Assembly (NCBI GenBank): GCA_002686955.1
Contig: NYZA01000169.1
Span: 1 to 15,688 of the forward strand
Length of the DNA stretch: 15,688 nt
Source of the DNA: Gemmatimonadota bacterium
GTDB lineage: Bacteria; GCA-2686955
Reading direction: 5' to 3'
Shown: positions 8,102 to 15,656 of the stretch, piece after piece
How the letters are laid out: every line of letters begins with the position of its first letter
Numbering within the stretch: the first letter of the stretch is position 1
Program-made: the position numbers and the translations under genes
Notes under the pieces: generated by a model
Told to the model about the DNA's origin: nothing
Seen by the model: the letters and a program-made list of their open reading frames with translations, nothing else
Databases searched by the model: none

Positions 8102-10492
8102 ATGAAAGATCGTGTACCCGTTGGGTTCTTTGCTTATCCATCGCAGTCCCCAACGCTTGCGGAGTCTATCGTTGAGGCGGTGAAGATTCTCCATAAGGCC
8201 CAGGGCACGAAGATCTCCACCTGGGAGGAGTGTCGAGTAGGTGGAAAACTGGTAATCGGGGAGGTGTGCAGAGCGATAGACGGTGCCGATCTCTTTTGCG
8301 CAGATTTGACCGGTCAAAACGCAAATGTGCTCTTTGAATTAGGCTACGCGATTGCTAAGAACAAGCGTGTTTGGGTTGTACGGGACTGTAGCTACGCTGA
8401 CGATGCAACACTGTTCGGGAAATTGCGCATTCTTACGACGCTTGGATACGCTTCCGCATCCAATTCAGATGAAATCGTTGCAGCATTCTCGAAGGATGAT
8501 CCATTCGGTGATCTTGATCGAACAGTATTCTCCGATTCGATCGAGCCGAATCTTGACGGTCCTCCAGCTGGGACGTTGCTATATCTAAAGAACAGACACG
8601 ACACGCAATCGAGCATTCATATCGCGCGGAGGATTGACGCCTCGCCAATTCCGACGATAGTGGATGACCCTGGGGAATCTGCGGTTCAAACACTGCAGTG
8701 GTATGGCGATCAAGTCTACGCTGCACGAGGTGTAGTGGTGCACCTTACGAGTCCAGAACGGAAGGGAGCGGTGCTACACACAGCGCGCCAATCTTTTGTT
8801 GCTGGGCTTGCTTACGGACTGAACAAGTCTCTATTGATGCTGTCTGAAAGCGATGTTCTCGCTCCCTTAGACTATCGAGATCTGTTGCGCCGATATGACA
8901 ACGCAAGAAACGCGAAGACCGAACTTGATGTCTGGCTTGACCCGGTTGAGAAGGAATTTGCGCGTGAAACTGATCAGGCGAAAAGTAGGGCTCATACCAT
9001 TCGGTTGGCCTCTGAGCTAAAGGGGCTCAGGTTTGGGGAGTATATCGCTGAGAATGAGTCACGGGACAAGCTGGATGCTTGCTTTGTACCAACGGCTGCG
9101 TACAACGCGGCGATTGAGGGTACGACAACACTTTTCGTCGGCCGCAAGGGATCGGGAAAGTCCGCCAATCTTCTGCGATTGGAGCGGGAGTTGGCTGGAG
9201 ATTCACGTAATCTCGTTTGTGTGATCAAGCCAGTCGCATACGAGATGCAGGGCCTCGTAGATCTTCTTCGAAAATACGAGAAAAGGGACAGCAAAGGGTA
9301 CGCAGTAGACGCACTATGGAAATATGTATTGTACACGGAGATTGCCCGTACACTTAGGGCACGCCTCGATAAACGACACAATAGTACATGGACCGACAGC
9401 GAACAGTGGTTCGGACAGTACGTCGACCAGCAGGGGGACATAATTCTCGACGACTTCTCGGTTAGACTTGAGAACTGCGTGGATCTGCTCCTAGAGGGAC
9501 GCACAGGGGAGTGGGAAGACAAAGTGAAGGACACACGTCTCGGAATATCAGAGGCGCTTCATGTCAACGCTCTGGGCGGTCTCCTAAAAGCACTGGGACC
9601 GGCCATGGAGCGCATCGGTCGCGTGTGCATACTGATTGATAATCTCGACAAGGCGTGGGAGCGCTCTGCCGATATATCGGTTCTGGCGGAGCTAATACTG
9701 GGACTGTTGGGAATTGCGCAACGGGTACCGAGAGATCTTCGGCTAGGCAAGGTGGGTGGTAGGGCGGTCGAAGCGAGCCTTGCCGTCTTTCTGCGTTCGG
9801 ACATATTTGACAACGTACGGAGAGTGGCACGAGAGCCAGACAAGCTTCTGTCAACGCGTTTGGATTGGAGCGATCCGGAGATGCTCGTTCGTGTTCTGGA
9901 GGAGAGGTTCATGGTAGGCAGGGAGGACTCTGCGGATCCCAGGCAGTTGTGGGACCGGTATTTTTGCGAATCGGTTCAGGGAAAGTCCACGCGAGAATAT
10001 CTGCTATCAACGATCTTGCCTCGCCCGCGAGATCTAATCTTTTTTACAAACGCGTGCGTTTCCGTGGCGGTGAATAGGGGTCACGGTCGCGTAGAGCCCG
10101 GTGACATTGAAGAGGCTGAGAAGCAATACTCTCAGTACGCCTTGGAAAGCGTATTGGTTGAGAGCACTGGCGAAGAGATTGACATGGAGGGTGTCACGTT
10201 CGCGTTTGCGGACGGAGAACAGGTTGTGTCGGAAACTGATGTCACGGATGTACTGTCCGGCGCTGGAGTGTCAGCGAAGGAGCACCTTCGCGTGATAGAT
10301 CGACTCTGTGGCCTCACGTTCCTCGGTCCGGAGGTTGGAGATGGAATCTACAATTATTGCGAAGACGCGCAAGCCTACAAGCTGGCGCAGGTGCGTGCAT
10401 CTAGCTTTGCGAGGCGAAGCGAACGCGGTCGGAGGTGGCGAATCCATCCAGCTTTTTGCGGATTTTTGGAGGTCGGACGCGAGTCTGACTGA
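8102..10492 (+). CDS. tandem TIR-like/deoxyribosyltransferase-like domains fused to Sll1717-type P-loop ATPase
   Basis: The product has 796 residues. Residues 1-95 form a TIR-like or nucleoside 2-deoxyribosyltransferase-like domain with GADLFCADLTGQNANVLFEL (61-80); E79 is the candidate catalytic glutamate. Residues about 157-250 look like a second, degenerate copy (SFVAGLAYGL in place of VLFELGYAIA). Residues about 320-690 are a P-loop ATPase: Walker A GRKGSGKS (347-354), Walker B VCILIDNLD (508-516), a sensor-like FLRSDIFD (563-570), and RPRDLIFFTNA (641-651), typical of the Sll1717 family. The last 100 residues are probably winged-helix-like. The start is set by AGGA 7 nt before ATG. GC content is visibly lower than in the left-hand operon, suggesting transfer. 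A defence role, with the ATPase sensing and the N-terminus acting on NAD or nucleotides, is inferred from architecture and neighbours. No membrane segment is seen. Confidence 0.75.
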   Translation: MKDRVPVGFFAYPSQSPTLAESIVEAVKILHKAQGTKISTWEECRVGGKLVIGEVCRAIDGADLFCADLTGQNANVLFELGYAIAKNKRVWVVRDCSYADDATLFGKLRILTTLGYASASNSDEIVAAFSKDDPFGDLDRTVFSDSIEPNLDGPPAGTLLYLKNRHDTQSSIHIARRIDASPIPTIVDDPGESAVQTLQWYGDQVYAARGVVVHLTSPERKGAVLHTARQSFVAGLAYGLNKSLLMLSESDVLAPLDYRDLLRRYDNARNAKTELDVWLDPVEKEFARETDQAKSRAHTIRLASELKGLRFGEYIAENESRDKLDACFVPTAAYNAAIEGTTTLFVGRKGSGKSANLLRLERELAGDSRNLVCVIKPVAYEMQGLVDLLRKYEKRDSKGYAVDALWKYVLYTEIARTLRARLDKRHNSTWTDSEQWFGQYVDQQGDIILDDFSVRLENCVDLLLEGRTGEWEDKVKDTRLGISEALHVNALGGLLKALGPAMERIGRVCILIDNLDKAWERSADISVLAELILGLLGIAQRVPRDLRLGKVGGRAVEASLAVFLRSDIFDNVRRVAREPDKLLSTRLDWSDPEMLVRVLEERFMVGREDSADPRQLWDRYFCESVQGKSTREYLLSTILPRPRDLIFFTNACVSVAVNRGHGRVEPGDIEEAEKQYSQYALESVLVESTGEEIDMEGVTFAFADGEQVVSETDVTDVLSGAGVSAKEHLRVIDRLCGLTFLGPEVGDGIYNYCEDAQAYKLAQVRASSFARRSERGRRWRIHPAFCGFLEVGRESD

Positions 10493-10587: not shown

Positions 10588-10703
10588 AGATCGGGCTATA
10601 GGAACGTAAGGGATCGGATCAAAGGGAACGCTAGAGGTCGGGTCAATGGGAACGGCCCGGATCGGGTCAAAGGAAACGCCCGAGATCGGGTCAACGGGAA
10701 CGC
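10588..10703 (+). repeat. IS21 left-end subterminal repeat array
   Basis: There are five units related to GATCGGGTCAAAGGGAACGC, beginning near 10588, 10612, 10636, 10660 and 10684, a period of 24 bp. The outermost unit is the most diverged and has a 1-nt deletion. In IS21 elements such arrays bind the IstA transposase. Confidence 0.85.
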
Positions 10704-10791
10704 GATCGAGGGAGCGTTTGAGTGGAATTGGCACAAGGGTTCACTGACCCTGCGTGAGCGACTGATGACGGTCGTCGAAGCAGGAGATCAG

Positions 10792-12396
10792 ATGAGCGCA
10801 AAGAGAGTTGAAATGGACAGATTGATCGAGTTGGTGCGGCTTCATCGCATGGGCGAGGGGAGTCGCGAGGTGTGTCGGCTGCTGGCGATGAGCCCGAAGA
10901 CGGAGCTGCGATATCGGAGTGCCTTGAGAACGGCAGGACTCCTGGACGGACCGGTGGATGCGCTCCCGGACTCCGAGGCGATTGGGACCGCGCTGAGCTC
11001 GGTGTTGCCGGCCGGGAAGACGCGCGAGGTGAAGTCGTCAGTGGATCGCTGGATGGACGAGATTCGCGGGGCGGTGGATGGCGGCGTTCGCCCGAAGGCG
11101 TTGTGTGACAGGCTCGTACGCACCGAGAACGGTTTTCGGGGCAGCTACCAGGCGATCAAACGAGCGTACGCTCGAGTGGCTCGTGCTCGGGGTGTGCAGG
11201 CTGAGGACGTCGTGATTCCGGTCGAAACCCCGGCCGGTGAAGTGGGCCAGGTGGACTTCGGCTATGTGGGCCGGCTGTTCGATCCCGAGGCCGGCCGGTT
11301 GCGCAAGGCATGGGTGTTTCTGCTGGTCCTGGGCTTCAGTCGACATATGTTCGCCCAGGTCGTCTTCGATCAGAAGACCGCGACTTGGATCCAGCTACAT
11401 GTGGATGCCTTTTCTTACCTTGGCGGAGTTCCGCGCGTCATCGTTCCCGACAATTTGAAGGCCGCAGTCGTGCGCACGGCGTTCGGCCTAACCGATCGCT
11501 CGAAGCTCGCCCTAAATCGCAGTTATCGGGAATTGGCGCGTTTCTACCGTTTCAAGATCGACCCGACTCCGCCGCGCAGTCCGAAGAAAAAGGGGAAGGT
11601 GGAATCGGGCGTTCGATATGTGAAACAGAATTTCTTCGCATCAACCGAGCTCGAGGACATCGATCACGCGAATCGCGAACTCGCGGACTGGGTTGAGAAG
11701 ACCGCGGGTCGGAGGACGCACGGAACCACGGGACGGCAACCACTGGCGTACTTTCTCGAGGAGGAGAGCCAAGCTCTTACGCCCTTGCCTGTCAACCGCT
11801 TCGAAGTCGTGGTGTGGAAGATCGCCAAAGTGCATCGCGACTCGCACGTGGAGTTCGAACGCCGTCTCTACTCGGTTCCGTGGCGCCATGTTGGGCAGCA
11901 GGTCCTGATTCGGGCGACCAAGAGCTCCGTCGAGATCCACGCCGACAACACGCGCATCGCCACCCACGAACGGCTCACGCGCGGGCGGCGCAGCACGCAC
12001 GAGCGACATTTGCCCGAACACCGTGTGGATCTGCGCCATCGATGCGAGGGCTACTGGCTCGAACGCGCTGATCGCATCGGCGACGACGTAGGTCGATATG
12101 TCCGCGCTGTATTCGAGTCCGACGACGTGCTGAGCAAGCTGCGTGACGCGCAGGCGATCGTCAGCTTGCTCGAAGGCTACCCGCCTCATCGAGCGGCCCG
12201 CGCGGCCCAGCGGGCTCTCTACTACGGCAATTTCACCTATCAGGGCATCCGGCGAATCCTCCGCAACGCCCTGAACCTCAGAGAGTTGCCGACTGTCCTG
12301 GTCCAAGACCAAAGCGGGATCGAGCAGCCTCGTTTCGCTCGCTCGGTCCACGAACTACTCGCCACCAAACTGGAGCTACCAAATGAGCCCAACTGA
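10792..12396 (+). CDS. istA: IS21-family transposase IstA
   Basis: This is the DDE transposase that cuts and joins the ends of the element. The preferred start is ATG at 10792, preceded by AGGAG 5 nt upstream; an in-frame ATG at 10765 would add nine residues but lacks a ribosome binding site. From 10792 the protein has 534 residues: an N-terminal helix-turn-helix (about 17-46, RLHRMGEGSREVCRLL), then an integrase-core (rve) domain with D155 (QVDFG), D220 (VPDNLKAAV) and E271 (KGKVESGVRYV), so the catalytic triad is complete. The C-terminal Mu-transposase-like part carries the RRLYSVPW segment. The 3' end overlaps istB by 14 bp, typical of the family. Confidence 0.95.
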   Translation: MSAKRVEMDRLIELVRLHRMGEGSREVCRLLAMSPKTELRYRSALRTAGLLDGPVDALPDSEAIGTALSSVLPAGKTREVKSSVDRWMDEIRGAVDGGVRPKALCDRLVRTENGFRGSYQAIKRAYARVARARGVQAEDVVIPVETPAGEVGQVDFGYVGRLFDPEAGRLRKAWVFLLVLGFSRHMFAQVVFDQKTATWIQLHVDAFSYLGGVPRVIVPDNLKAAVVRTAFGLTDRSKLALNRSYRELARFYRFKIDPTPPRSPKKKGKVESGVRYVKQNFFASTELEDIDHANRELADWVEKTAGRRTHGTTGRQPLAYFLEEESQALTPLPVNRFEVVVWKIAKVHRDSHVEFERRLYSVPWRHVGQQVLIRATKSSVEIHADNTRIATHERLTRGRRSTHERHLPEHRVDLRHRCEGYWLERADRIGDDVGRYVRAVFESDDVLSKLRDAQAIVSLLEGYPPHRAARAAQRALYYGNFTYQGIRRILRNALNLRELPTVLVQDQSGIEQPRFARSVHELLATKLELPNEPN

Positions 12397-13135
12397 CGAA
12401 CTGATCCCCGTGCTCAAGAAGCTGCGCATGTCCGGCGTTCTATCGAGCCTCGATATTCGACTCCGACAGGCCACCGAAGGAGAGATCAGCCACATCGAAT
12501 TCCTCTACCGGCTCCTAACCGACGAAGTCGAGCGAAGAGAGAGCAAACAGCTCCAGCTCCGACTGAATCGAGCCAGTTTCGAACACCAGAAGTCGTTGGA
12601 AGACTTCAACTTCTCATTCAATCCCAAGTTGCCAAAGAGCAAGATTCTCGATCTTGCCACCTGCCGATTCCTCGATTCCCACACGAACATCTTGCTCGTC
12701 GGACCCGCCGGCGTCGGCAAGAGTCATATTGCACAGGCCCTCGGCCATCGCGCCTGCATGAGCGGCTACTCCTGCCTCTACGTGACCGCTCACAAGATGC
12801 TGGCTTCACTGCGGGCCGCCCGCGCTGATGCTACCTACGAACGCCGCCTCGCCAGATTCACCACACCGCAACTCCTCATCATCGATGACCTCGGACTGCG
12901 TCCCCTGCAACACGACGAGCCTCTCGATCTCTACGAGATCATCCGGCAACGATACGAACGCACCGCCACGATCATGACCTCCAATCGAGATGTCGCCGAA
13001 TGGTACCCCCTCTTCGGCGACGATCTCCTCGCCAGCGCGGCGATGGATCGCCAACTTCACCACAGCCAAATCCTCACCCTCGAAGGGAAATCCTTCCGCA
13101 CCAACAAGAACAAGCGATCGGCCAAGGCGGCATGA
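12383..13135 (+). CDS. istB: IS21-family helper ATPase IstB
   Basis: The product has 250 residues, the usual length. It is a DnaC-like AAA+ ATPase that assists IstA in target selection and strand transfer. Walker A is GPAGVGKS (107-114), Walker B LLIIDDLG (164-171), and the sensor segment is IMTSNRDVAEW (197-207). The basic C-terminus (KSFRTNKNKRSAK) is typical. The ATG at 12383 has GGAG about 8 nt upstream inside the istA end. The stop lies 2 nt before the first inner repeat unit of the right end. It appears intact. Confidence 0.95.
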   Translation: MSPTDELIPVLKKLRMSGVLSSLDIRLRQATEGEISHIEFLYRLLTDEVERRESKQLQLRLNRASFEHQKSLEDFNFSFNPKLPKSKILDLATCRFLDSHTNILLVGPAGVGKSHIAQALGHRACMSGYSCLYVTAHKMLASLRAARADATYERRLARFTTPQLLIIDDLGLRPLQHDEPLDLYEIIRQRYERTATIMTSNRDVAEWYPLFGDDLLASAAMDRQLHHSQILTLEGKSFRTNKNKRSAKAA

Positions 13136-13137
13136 TC

Positions 13138-13277
13138 GCGTTCCCTTTGACCCGATCCCGATGCGCCATGGCGTACACGCCAAACCAGCCAACTTGTACA
13201 CCCCGATGACCCTCACCCTGTACCTCCCAAAAACGCGTTCCCTTTACCCCGATCTCGAGCGTTCCCTATGGGCGGTC
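13138..13277 (-). repeat. IS21 right-end subterminal repeats
   Basis: There are three units in inverse orientation to the left end: GCGTTCCCTTTGACCCGATC (13138-13157), GCGTTCCCTTTACCCCGATC (13235-13254) and GCGTTCCCTATGGGCGGTC (13259-13277). The outer two are 24 nt apart. The inner one is 97 nt away, close to four periods. Confidence 0.8.
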
Positions 13278-13487: not shown

Positions 13488-14654
13488 ATGAGGAGACCCG
13501 TAGTGCTTTCGAACGTCTACTTCCTGGGAGCCGGATTCTCTAAGGGGCTCGGGTTTCCATTGGCTACGGAGCTCTTCGCTTGCATGGAAGGGCACCGATC
13601 ATTGTTGTTGGAAGAAACGGGCTTCTACGATCCACACATGGAGTGGATTAGGGCCCTGCAACAAGATGGCATCTACCGTTATCGCGAGGCACTCGAAGGG
13701 AAACTAGGGGTCGAGGACTGGTTCACGCACATCGACAAGCTACATAAGGACAATGCTCCCAAGACGGATGCGGAGCGGTTTGAGTTCGGCCGTCGATGGG
13801 AAGTCCGCAATACGAGCCAGAACATCAAGTACTTGATGGCGCACCTTCTAGGCAAACTCGTGTACCACCTCTCTGGCTCTGCGCACCCTCGCAGCTACTA
13901 CGACTTTCTAGAGGCCATCGGATCGAGAGCTGCACTCATCACCACGAACTGGGACGTTGCAGTCGAGCGCATCTTGGCCGCCATCGGTCGTCGCTACACG
14001 TATGGCGACGGCGACGGCCTTCCCCTGATGAAGCTCCACGGATCCGCGAACTGGTTTGACCTTCGCGGATTCAAGATCTTCCCACATGACCGCCAAGTCT
14101 GTCCCCTACCGGCGACACTACAGGACGCTGAAAGTTTTCTTGTTGCGGACACACGGACCGGGGAGATGCGAGTGGTCAGGACCACCGTCGCGGGCCTGGG
14201 GAAGAGTTCTTTTCTCCCACACGAGATACGGGGCTACATACAGTGCGATGACAACCCTTACGCACCCACGGGGTTCTCAGAGGGCTTCATCGCGGCGAAC
14301 CCGGAAGCGGGTGGAAAAATGACCGCCCCGATCTTGGACACCATGCTGTATCTTCCGTGGATGGAGAAGCATGCTCCGGATTTCCAACCATTCCGGTACA
14401 TATTCCAGCGAACTAGAGAGCTGTTGGCCGAAGCCGATCGCGTCTGGTTTGTGGGGTACAGCATGCCGCCGCAAGACGCGAACATTGTATCGCTCTTACG
14501 GCAGCTCAGCCAAGATAACCCGCGTGCGAGCATCTACGTCGTGAACCCAGATGCAGCGCTTGCAGGTCACTTCGAGAGCCTATTGGATGCGAAGGTCACG
14601 CTGGTGACCGAGTACACGGAGGGATGGATTGAATCGGGTGTATGGCGGGGATGA
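13488..14654 (+). CDS. SIR2-like family protein, probable NAD-consuming defence effector
   Basis: The product has 388 residues and the SIR2 motifs in order: NAD-binding FLGAGFSKG (12-20), ITTNWD (151-156; N154 and D156), KLHGS (182-186; H184 is the catalytic histidine) and VGYSMPPQD (322-330). No zinc-binding CxxC pairs are seen, so it is closer to the prokaryotic SIR2 NADases of phage defence than to sirtuin deacetylases. In known systems such enzymes deplete NAD+ when triggered, stopping phage growth. The start is ATG at 13488 with GGAG 6 nt upstream. The gene begins just after an attC-like GTTAGGC box, as in an integron cassette. No partner gene is directly joined; the nearest candidate is the ATPase gene on the other side of the IS21 element. 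The defence role is inferred from the family. Confidence 0.85.
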   Translation: MRRPVVLSNVYFLGAGFSKGLGFPLATELFACMEGHRSLLLEETGFYDPHMEWIRALQQDGIYRYREALEGKLGVEDWFTHIDKLHKDNAPKTDAERFEFGRRWEVRNTSQNIKYLMAHLLGKLVYHLSGSAHPRSYYDFLEAIGSRAALITTNWDVAVERILAAIGRRYTYGDGDGLPLMKLHGSANWFDLRGFKIFPHDRQVCPLPATLQDAESFLVADTRTGEMRVVRTTVAGLGKSSFLPHEIRGYIQCDDNPYAPTGFSEGFIAANPEAGGKMTAPILDTMLYLPWMEKHAPDFQPFRYIFQRTRELLAEADRVWFVGYSMPPQDANIVSLLRQLSQDNPRASIYVVNPDAALAGHFESLLDAKVTLVTEYTEGWIESGVWRG

Positions 14655-14717
14655 AGGTATGAAGGAACCTGCTTATCCGGTTGACGCAACACGGCACTAG
14701 ATGTAGTGTGCGCGACT

Positions 14718-15656
14718 ATGAAACTCCCCTCACCGCAGACCCTTCCCGAATTCCAGAGCGTGTTTCCGAACGAGGAGGCGTGCCTGCTGTATCTCTTCGA
14801 CCTGCGATGGCCCGGCGGATTCGTCTGCCGAAAATGTACGGGGAGGAAGCACTACTCGTATCCGCTGCGAAGGACGGTCGTCTGCAAGACATGTCGGACA
14901 CACGTGCGCTTGACGGCGGGGACAATTATGGAGCGCTCGAAGCAACCCCTTTTGACTTGGTTCTATGGCGCCTTTCTGACAACCACCTTGACTCCTGGGA
15001 TCTCCGCGGTCCAGTTTCAGAGACAGTTGGGGATTGGTCGATATGAAACGGCCTTCCAGTTACTTCACAAGATTCGGGCGGCGATGGTTGCTCCCGAACG
15101 TGAACTGCTCCACGGGTGCGTCGAAATCGATGAGACACTCATTGGCGGAGTACACAAGGGTGGCGAGCGGGGACGCTCGACCCAAAAGAAGACGCTGGTG
15201 ATCGGCGCCGTAGAAGTCCGGCAGGGGAGGAAGAGAAGCGTAGTCGCCGGCAGAGTCCGCCTCCGCGCGATTCCCGATGCTGCGTGCTCTGCGGTGGTGG
15301 GCTTCGTGCAGGAAAACGTCGTCCCCGGAACGACTGTATTGACGGATGGCCATAACGGCTACAATGCTCTGCAGCGGCTGGGATACCAACATCGATCAGA
15401 AGTGGCAGCTGCCCTCCCCTTGGCTCATCGTGAATTCGCCAACCTCAAAACCTGGCTGCGCGGGCCCCACCATGACCGGGTCGAGCGTAAGCACCTACAA
15501 GCGTACCTCAACGAGTTCGCATTTCGCCACAACCGACGCTTCTGGCCTTTCAGCGCATTCCAGCGCGTCCTCCAGATTGCGATGAAGACAGCGGCACCCA
15601 CGTATCACGAACTGTATCAAGCAGACGAGTTCGGAACTGACGTGCATGTCAGGTGA
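14718..15656 (+). CDS. IS1595-family transposase
   Basis: The product has 312 residues from the ATG at 14718; an in-frame GTG at 14706 would add four. The start FQSVFPNEEACLLYLFDLRWPGGF is typical of the family. An N-terminal zinc ribbon has C37 and C40 (CRKC) and C56 and C59 (CKTC). The ISXO2-like DDE core has D138 (EIDETLIGG), D210 (LTDGHNGY) and E266 in YLNEFAFRHNRR. The frame is intact. I could not define terminal inverted repeats or a target duplication; the right end may lie at or beyond the window edge. The element sits 63 nt after the SIR2 gene. Confidence 0.9.
   Translation: MKLPSPQTLPEFQSVFPNEEACLLYLFDLRWPGGFVCRKCTGRKHYSYPLRRTVVCKTCRTHVRLTAGTIMERSKQPLLTWFYGAFLTTTLTPGISAVQFQRQLGIGRYETAFQLLHKIRAAMVAPERELLHGCVEIDETLIGGVHKGGERGRSTQKKTLVIGAVEVRQGRKRSVVAGRVRLRAIPDAACSAVVGFVQENVVPGTTVLTDGHNGYNALQRLGYQHRSEVAAALPLAHREFANLKTWLRGPHHDRVERKHLQAYLNEFAFRHNRRFWPFSAFQRVLQIAMKTAAPTYHELYQADEFGTDVHVR

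Follow-up and report, generated by a model that had tools for sequence, protein, structure and literature searches.

The 796-residue protein encoded at positions 8102..10492 on the forward strand of the window (the whole 15,688-nt stretch analysed here) combines two TIR/NDT-like domains with a Sll1717-family ATPase, and we consider it probable, with moderate confidence, that it is a single-gene, NLR-like anti-phage protein of the abortive-infection kind, whose TIR/NDT-type effector is most likely an NADase. This architecture is seen in both the sequence and the predicted structure, and it is accompanied by conserved active-site residues, a patchy distribution and a defence-type neighbourhood. 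An earlier note on this DNA, which had read the gene as a TIR-like or deoxyribosyltransferase-like N-terminus fused to a Sll1717-type ATPase with a possible role in phage defence, is correct on the architecture and probably also on the kind of function.

The reading frame begins with the ATG at 8102, about 7 nt downstream of an AGGA-type ribosome site, and its stop ends at 10492. The GC content is 51-55% across the gene and 58-71% in the DNA on its left, confirming the lower GC relative to host-like DNA that had been remarked on before. Judged from their translations, the reading frames to the left are bi-domain oxidoreductase-like, DUF362-like and glycosyltransferase-like. The right side is occupied by an IS21 element with 24-nt tandem end repeats (10593-13270; istA 10765-12396, istB 12383-13135), a SIR2-like gene of 388 aa (13488-14654) with a GAGFSKGLGFP motif and a match to PF13289 (SIR2_2; E 4e-6), and an IS1595-family transposase with a zinc ribbon (14706-15656). 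The SIR2 gene and mobile elements previously placed beside the gene are thus present, but the SIR2 gene is not its direct neighbor, since IS21 lies in between; were IS21 removed, about 320 bp would separate the two, which share a strand. The SIR2 protein had no match among plasmids. An alignment scan found at least 315 relatives of the 796-aa protein in species genomes (full length checked for part of them), whereas a scan of genome contigs with the single sequence gave no match. The best 80 of these relatives were fetched and, with the window protein, make up the 81-sequence alignment in which conservation was assessed; they align end to end with the window protein and are 23-44% identical to it. 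The AF2 model of the whole protein, computed from this alignment, has a pLDDT of 92.

Residues 1-137 (D1; 8102..8512, forward strand) form a predicted catalytic domain of the TIR/NDT superfamily, as assigned by PF05014 together with Foldseek and VIA matches. The PF05014 (Nuc_deoxyrib_tr) match covers residues 57-95 with an E-value of 8e-5 when residues 1-268 are the query and 5e-4 with the whole protein; although weak (23.3 bits for residues 1-268 against a Pfam gathering score of 28.8), it is real, as this model also hits 66 members of the 81-sequence alignment at E <= 0.01. At that threshold 13 of the 81 members, but not the window protein, match the CAP12/Pycsar TIR model (PF10137), the best of them at 1.8e-7. 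Searching PDB sequences with the protein alone gave mainly matches to dynein light chain, at chance level. When a profile built from the N-terminal region was compared with solved structures, it found Rcl/DNPH1 (E 5e-5) and placed E79 on its catalytic Glu in a gap-free aligned stretch. Residues 1-268 were folded (AF2, pLDDT 94, pTM 0.93) and structure-searched alone, since the full-length VIA search was filled by the ATPase; the matches then listed were filled by D1. In this predicted model, residues 4-148 align with DNPH1, MilB, NDT and the TIR domains of SfSTING and SARM1 at VIA Z scores of 9-11 (DNPH1 11.1, MilB 10.7, SfSTING TIR 10.2, SARM1 TIR 10.0), with Foldseek matches as well. D1 (residues 4-137 in the structural matches) is thus predicted to be an alpha/beta domain of flavodoxin-like type whose catalytic Glu stands at the conserved site, which bears out the TIR-like/deoxyribosyltransferase-like N-terminus proposed before. 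The candidate catalytic residue, E79 (codon 8336..8338, forward strand), lies within ADLTGQNANVLFELGYA (residues 67-83), where the family motif is N-x-N-V-x-F/Y-E-x-G, and is invariant in 81/81 sequences.

As the Z scores are near ties (within about 1 Z), the fold alone cannot choose between a nucleotide hydrolase and an NADase. An unlikely, though appreciable, alternative is that D1 is a DNPH1/MilB-like nucleotide N-hydrolase or deoxyribosyltransferase, gated by the ATPase, that attacks free or phage-modified nucleotides and so corrupts or clears their pool. The best sequence and fold matches are to Rcl/DNPH1, followed in fold by MilB, a CMP/hmCMP N-glycosidase, and most members match PF05014; that the closest folds by overall score belong to nucleotide hydrolases and not to NADases was counted against the reading that we prefer. 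However, the active site departs from these enzymes. In DNPH1, D80 protonates the leaving base (PMC10603095). The equivalent position (D80 in the human and D69 in the rat enzyme) is V55 in the window protein and Ile (56/81) or Val (25/81) in the family, so that the catalytic acid Asp of DNPH1/NDT-type nucleotide N-glycosidases is found in none of the 81. Such an acid serves to protonate a neutral base; the leaving group of NAD+ is charged, and TIR NADases work without that acid. Its replacement by Val or Ile throughout the family therefore favors an NADase on chemical grounds, NAD+ having a good leaving group. Moreover, where DNPH1 has a Ser six positions ahead of its Glu, 75/81 sequences have Asn, the residue four before the Glu (N75) is an invariant Asn, and the members that match the CAP12 TIR model likewise point away from a nucleotide hydrolase. 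D1 is most likely an NADase.

A second region, suspected earlier at residues 157-250, proved to be a second alpha/beta domain lacking the Glu (D2, residues 153-268; 8558..8905, forward strand; delimited from the AF2 model of residues 1-268 and hhalign). The Glu position is taken by V233, and this position is hydrophobic in nearly all relatives. The hhalign comparison of D1 with D2 scored 21.8 in the expected register, whereas 60 shuffled trials reached at most 16.2 and reversing the profile gave 17.8; this is moderate evidence that D2 is probably a degenerate repeat, or pseudo-copy, of D1. DSSP on the AF2 model assigns a long linker helix to residues 268-307 (8903..9022, forward strand).

The remainder of the protein comprises a Sll1717-family, ORC/Cdc6-like P-loop ATPase (residues 311-690; 9032..10171, forward strand; NF047389 and VIA) and a C-terminal winged-helix-like part (residues 691-796; 10172..10489, forward strand), the latter assigned from AF2 secondary structure and from NLR/ORC alignments that extend to about residue 791. 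NF047389 (ATPase_Sll1717, NCBIfam) matches residues 311-787 at E 5e-80 over model positions 1-452 of 454, its 269.7 bits being far over the curated cut-off of 75, which places the protein firmly in the family to which it had been assigned. The Walker A (GRKGSGKS, residues 347-354; 9140..9163) and Walker B (VCILIDNLD, residues 508-516; 9623..9649) motifs, both on the forward strand, are intact as reported, with G347, G350, G352 and K353 of the former and D513 and D516 of the latter invariant in all 81 sequences. Other invariant residues include W41, N75, G81, G235, D257, R565 and R643. VIA matches of the ATPase include SSO1545 (Z 13.7), the NRC4 resistosome (13.4), ORC2 (13.2), RPP1 (12.8) and CED-4 (12.2), and TnsC-type AAA+ proteins likewise match its fold. 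In the predicted model an NTPase is followed by a winged helix, as in STAND/NLR proteins, and SSO1545 and the NLR structures align up to residue 790-791.

Sll1717-family ATPases occur in several settings. Some stand alone, and a distant Sll1717 protein (L196) instead has a weakly TIR_2-like N-terminus (E 0.0016); one ATPase chassis that carries varied N-termini is the pattern expected of a switch whose outputs can be exchanged. We also observed a cold-shock nucleic-acid-binding domain fused to a Sll1717-family ATPase (L185 1156-2880). On the F plasmid, a hypothetical gene (L011 3010-5106) encodes a stand-alone Sll1717-family ATPase with an unassigned C-terminal extension of about 220 aa and adjoins Tn3-type transposase and recombinase genes of the Tn1000 region. 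ATPase-only relatives are found on many plasmids, and ATPases similar to that of F on many enterobacterial ones. These plasmid and transposon associations, the TnsC-type fold matches and the IS21 and IS1595 elements flanking the window gene would suit a gene that serves a mobile element, in plasmid or transposon movement, self-regulation or the exclusion of competitors, and not host defence. We regard this as quite unlikely, because the IS neighbors vary by locus, no transposition gene recurs at most loci (a recombinase group reaches 4) and transposition needs no conserved glycosidase site; guarding an element from its rivals would, besides, still be a defence-type role.

About 18 phyla, two groups of archaea among them, are represented in the best 80 of the at least 315 relatives. 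Near-full-length copies are present on viral contigs (9), and in 13 plasmid records a match covers 80% or more of the protein; on plasmids the members are annotated as hypothetical proteins or, in Ensifer, as nucleoside 2-deoxyribosyltransferase. A phage collection contained no match to the window protein and one weak, ATPase-only match to a Pseudomonas relative, and E. coli genomes contained no DNA-level match to that Pseudomonas relative. In the family tree the members group mostly by phylum, with 22 changes against a minimum of 17, so the family is old and has either been retained patchily or moved chiefly inside phyla, transfer between phyla being limited. At a finer scale the gene is sparse: a full-length copy occurs in five of 199 Pseudomonas species and in none of 191 further genomes sampled from around that of the window. 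Broken copies occur on plasmids of Rhizobium johnstonii, Rhodococcus and Planococcus and on one Poribacteria contig. Stops or frameshifts interrupt several copies of the main gene (L008, L003, L006 and L049), which may point to a costly or toxic product. Nucleotide salvage is a role of NDT and DNPH1 enzymes, and the protein might by that token be an ATPase-controlled salvage enzyme for housekeeping or stress. This scattered pattern, however, with sites that differ in each Pseudomonas species compared and with broken plasmid copies, speaks against a metabolic role, and we hold such a role to be most improbable. The relatives are thus not concentrated in conserved housekeeping loci, which would have spoken against the earlier reading, but are distributed patchily, among defence-type genes and on plasmids.

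In the four Pseudomonas species compared, the gene occupies four sites with no flanking DNA in common. Its neighbors are TPR-S, ThsB-TIR and SLATT genes in P. chlororaphis, where a tRNA-Pro lies beside the gene, TPR-S and ThsB-TIR in a second species, AIPR/AbiU and a Mrr-type endonuclease in a third, and a NACHT protein in the fourth. The pair of TPR-S and ThsB-type TIR that adjoins the main gene in two of these species (L209 12900-14560, L212 12259-14904), accompanied in P. chlororaphis by a double SLATT protein, looks like a separate defence cassette. On a Rhodococcus plasmid, the flanking genes encode a TIR protein and a DUF4062 protein. The defence-gene count proposed in the earlier note was carried out on 263 proteins encoded no more than 3.5 kb from 44 relatives; the controls were 259 proteins from 40 regions of the same contigs, at a distance of about 55 kb or more. 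At E <= 1e-10, 120+119 PADLOC models were hit near the relatives and 57+36 in the controls (about 2.6-fold), a comparison that counts models and not proteins, simply sums two scans per set and includes some matches to housekeeping-like helicases. Within the window itself, the sole possible defence neighbor is the one SIR2 gene beyond IS21.

No conserved operon partner emerged from 853 neighboring ORFs, in which the largest homologous group is found at 5 loci and is not defence-effector-like; the lack of a widely recurring partner gene fits a single-gene system. It also bears on the idea that D1 makes a signal, such as cyclic ADP-ribose in the manner of ThsB, that activates a separate effector, either the SIR2 protein of the window or a neighboring SLATT protein. 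The downstream position of the SIR2 gene, its short distance once IS21 is discounted, and the SLATT and ThsB neighbors in Pseudomonas are in keeping with this idea, as is a relative of the SIR2 gene 1 kb from a main-gene homologue on an Elusimicrobia contig (L023). However, that is the sole locus with such a relative, and with no partner recurring we find this explanation very unlikely.

For the anti-phage, NADase-type protein that we prefer, we hypothesize the following mechanism. The STAND/ORC-Cdc6-like ATPase (residues 311-790) would act as a nucleotide-driven switch and oligomerization platform that senses a cue of infection, probably via the C-terminal winged-helix part. Switching would draw the N-terminal TIR/NDT-like domains together, and D1 would then break an N-glycosidic bond via E79, most likely that of NAD+, leaving a cell that no longer supports the phage and plausibly dies. 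D2 would be catalytically dead and would serve D1 as a partner in the same chain, probably by completing its active site or regulating it. An unlikely variant is a single-gene immune system in which the ORC/Cdc6-like ATPase senses phage DNA or replication directly and fires a TIR/NDT enzyme, completed in-chain by its dead twin, that possibly acts on nucleotides and not on NAD+. If the NADase-type function is correct, the protein represents a further prokaryotic counterpart of TIR-NLR receptors, and the pairing of a catalytic with a dead domain, if true, would add a useful variant to the ways in which TIR-like enzymes build their active sites. With one gene and two obvious mutants (E79 and K353), the proposal is readily testable.

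Widespread as it is, the family has no model of the whole architecture in Pfam, NCBIfam or PADLOC, and a literature search on Sll1717 and on NDT with defence, its coverage lying mostly outside subscription papers, returned no description of the protein. Like the earlier note, we know of no named system with exactly this arrangement, though close precedents exist. The NLR proteins RPP1, NRC4 and CED-4 share a STAND-like ATPase with a winged helix (VIA Z 12-13), and RPP1 also carries an N-terminal TIR; the window protein differs in having no LRR or other C-terminal repeat sensor, and the identity is about 8-13%. DNPH1, MilB and the nucleoside 2'-deoxyribosyltransferases share the D1 fold and the position of the nucleophilic Glu, unlike which the window family is fused to an ATPase and lacks their catalytic acid. 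Thoeris (ThsA SIR2-SLOG with ThsB TIR) was rejected, as the SIR2 protein of the window matches only SIR2_2, with no SLOG, and the 796-aa protein has no ThsB-family match in PADLOC. DS-41 (NF053860), an anti-phage protein validated in DefensePredictor (PMC13092281), is distantly similar to the window protein over residues 311-375 (E 2e-8); at 34 bits the match is far under the cut-off of 370 and serves as a lead only. Swarozyc, a TIR-like DUF4062 NADase with an auxiliary sensor domain for which abortive defence was shown experimentally (PMC13174449), is alike in its TIR-like/NDT-like domain with one catalytic Glu, its fusion to an auxiliary domain and its patchy, single-gene occurrence in defence islands, but its auxiliary part is a winged-helix portal-binding domain where the window protein has a Sll1717 ATPase. 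Membership in Swarozyc was rejected, given that DUF4062 is absent from the window protein and matches only one of the 81 members, weakly (E 0.004). Fusions of Orc/Cdc6-family ATPases with TIR NADases are predicted from genome context to be counter-invader proteins (PMC10853773), and they similarly join an ORC/Cdc6-clade ATPase to a TIR-type N-glycosidase in mobile, defence-like contexts. They sit with REase/HerA or KAP partners, whereas the window protein stands alone; it also differs in its tandem NDT-like module with one copy apparently dead, and in a D1 that by sequence is nearest to NDT/DNPH1 and, in some members, to CAP12-TIR. Thus, the 796-aa architecture, for which the libraries searched gave no name, is a variant among known kinds, possibly distinct from the Orc/Cdc6-TIR fusions.
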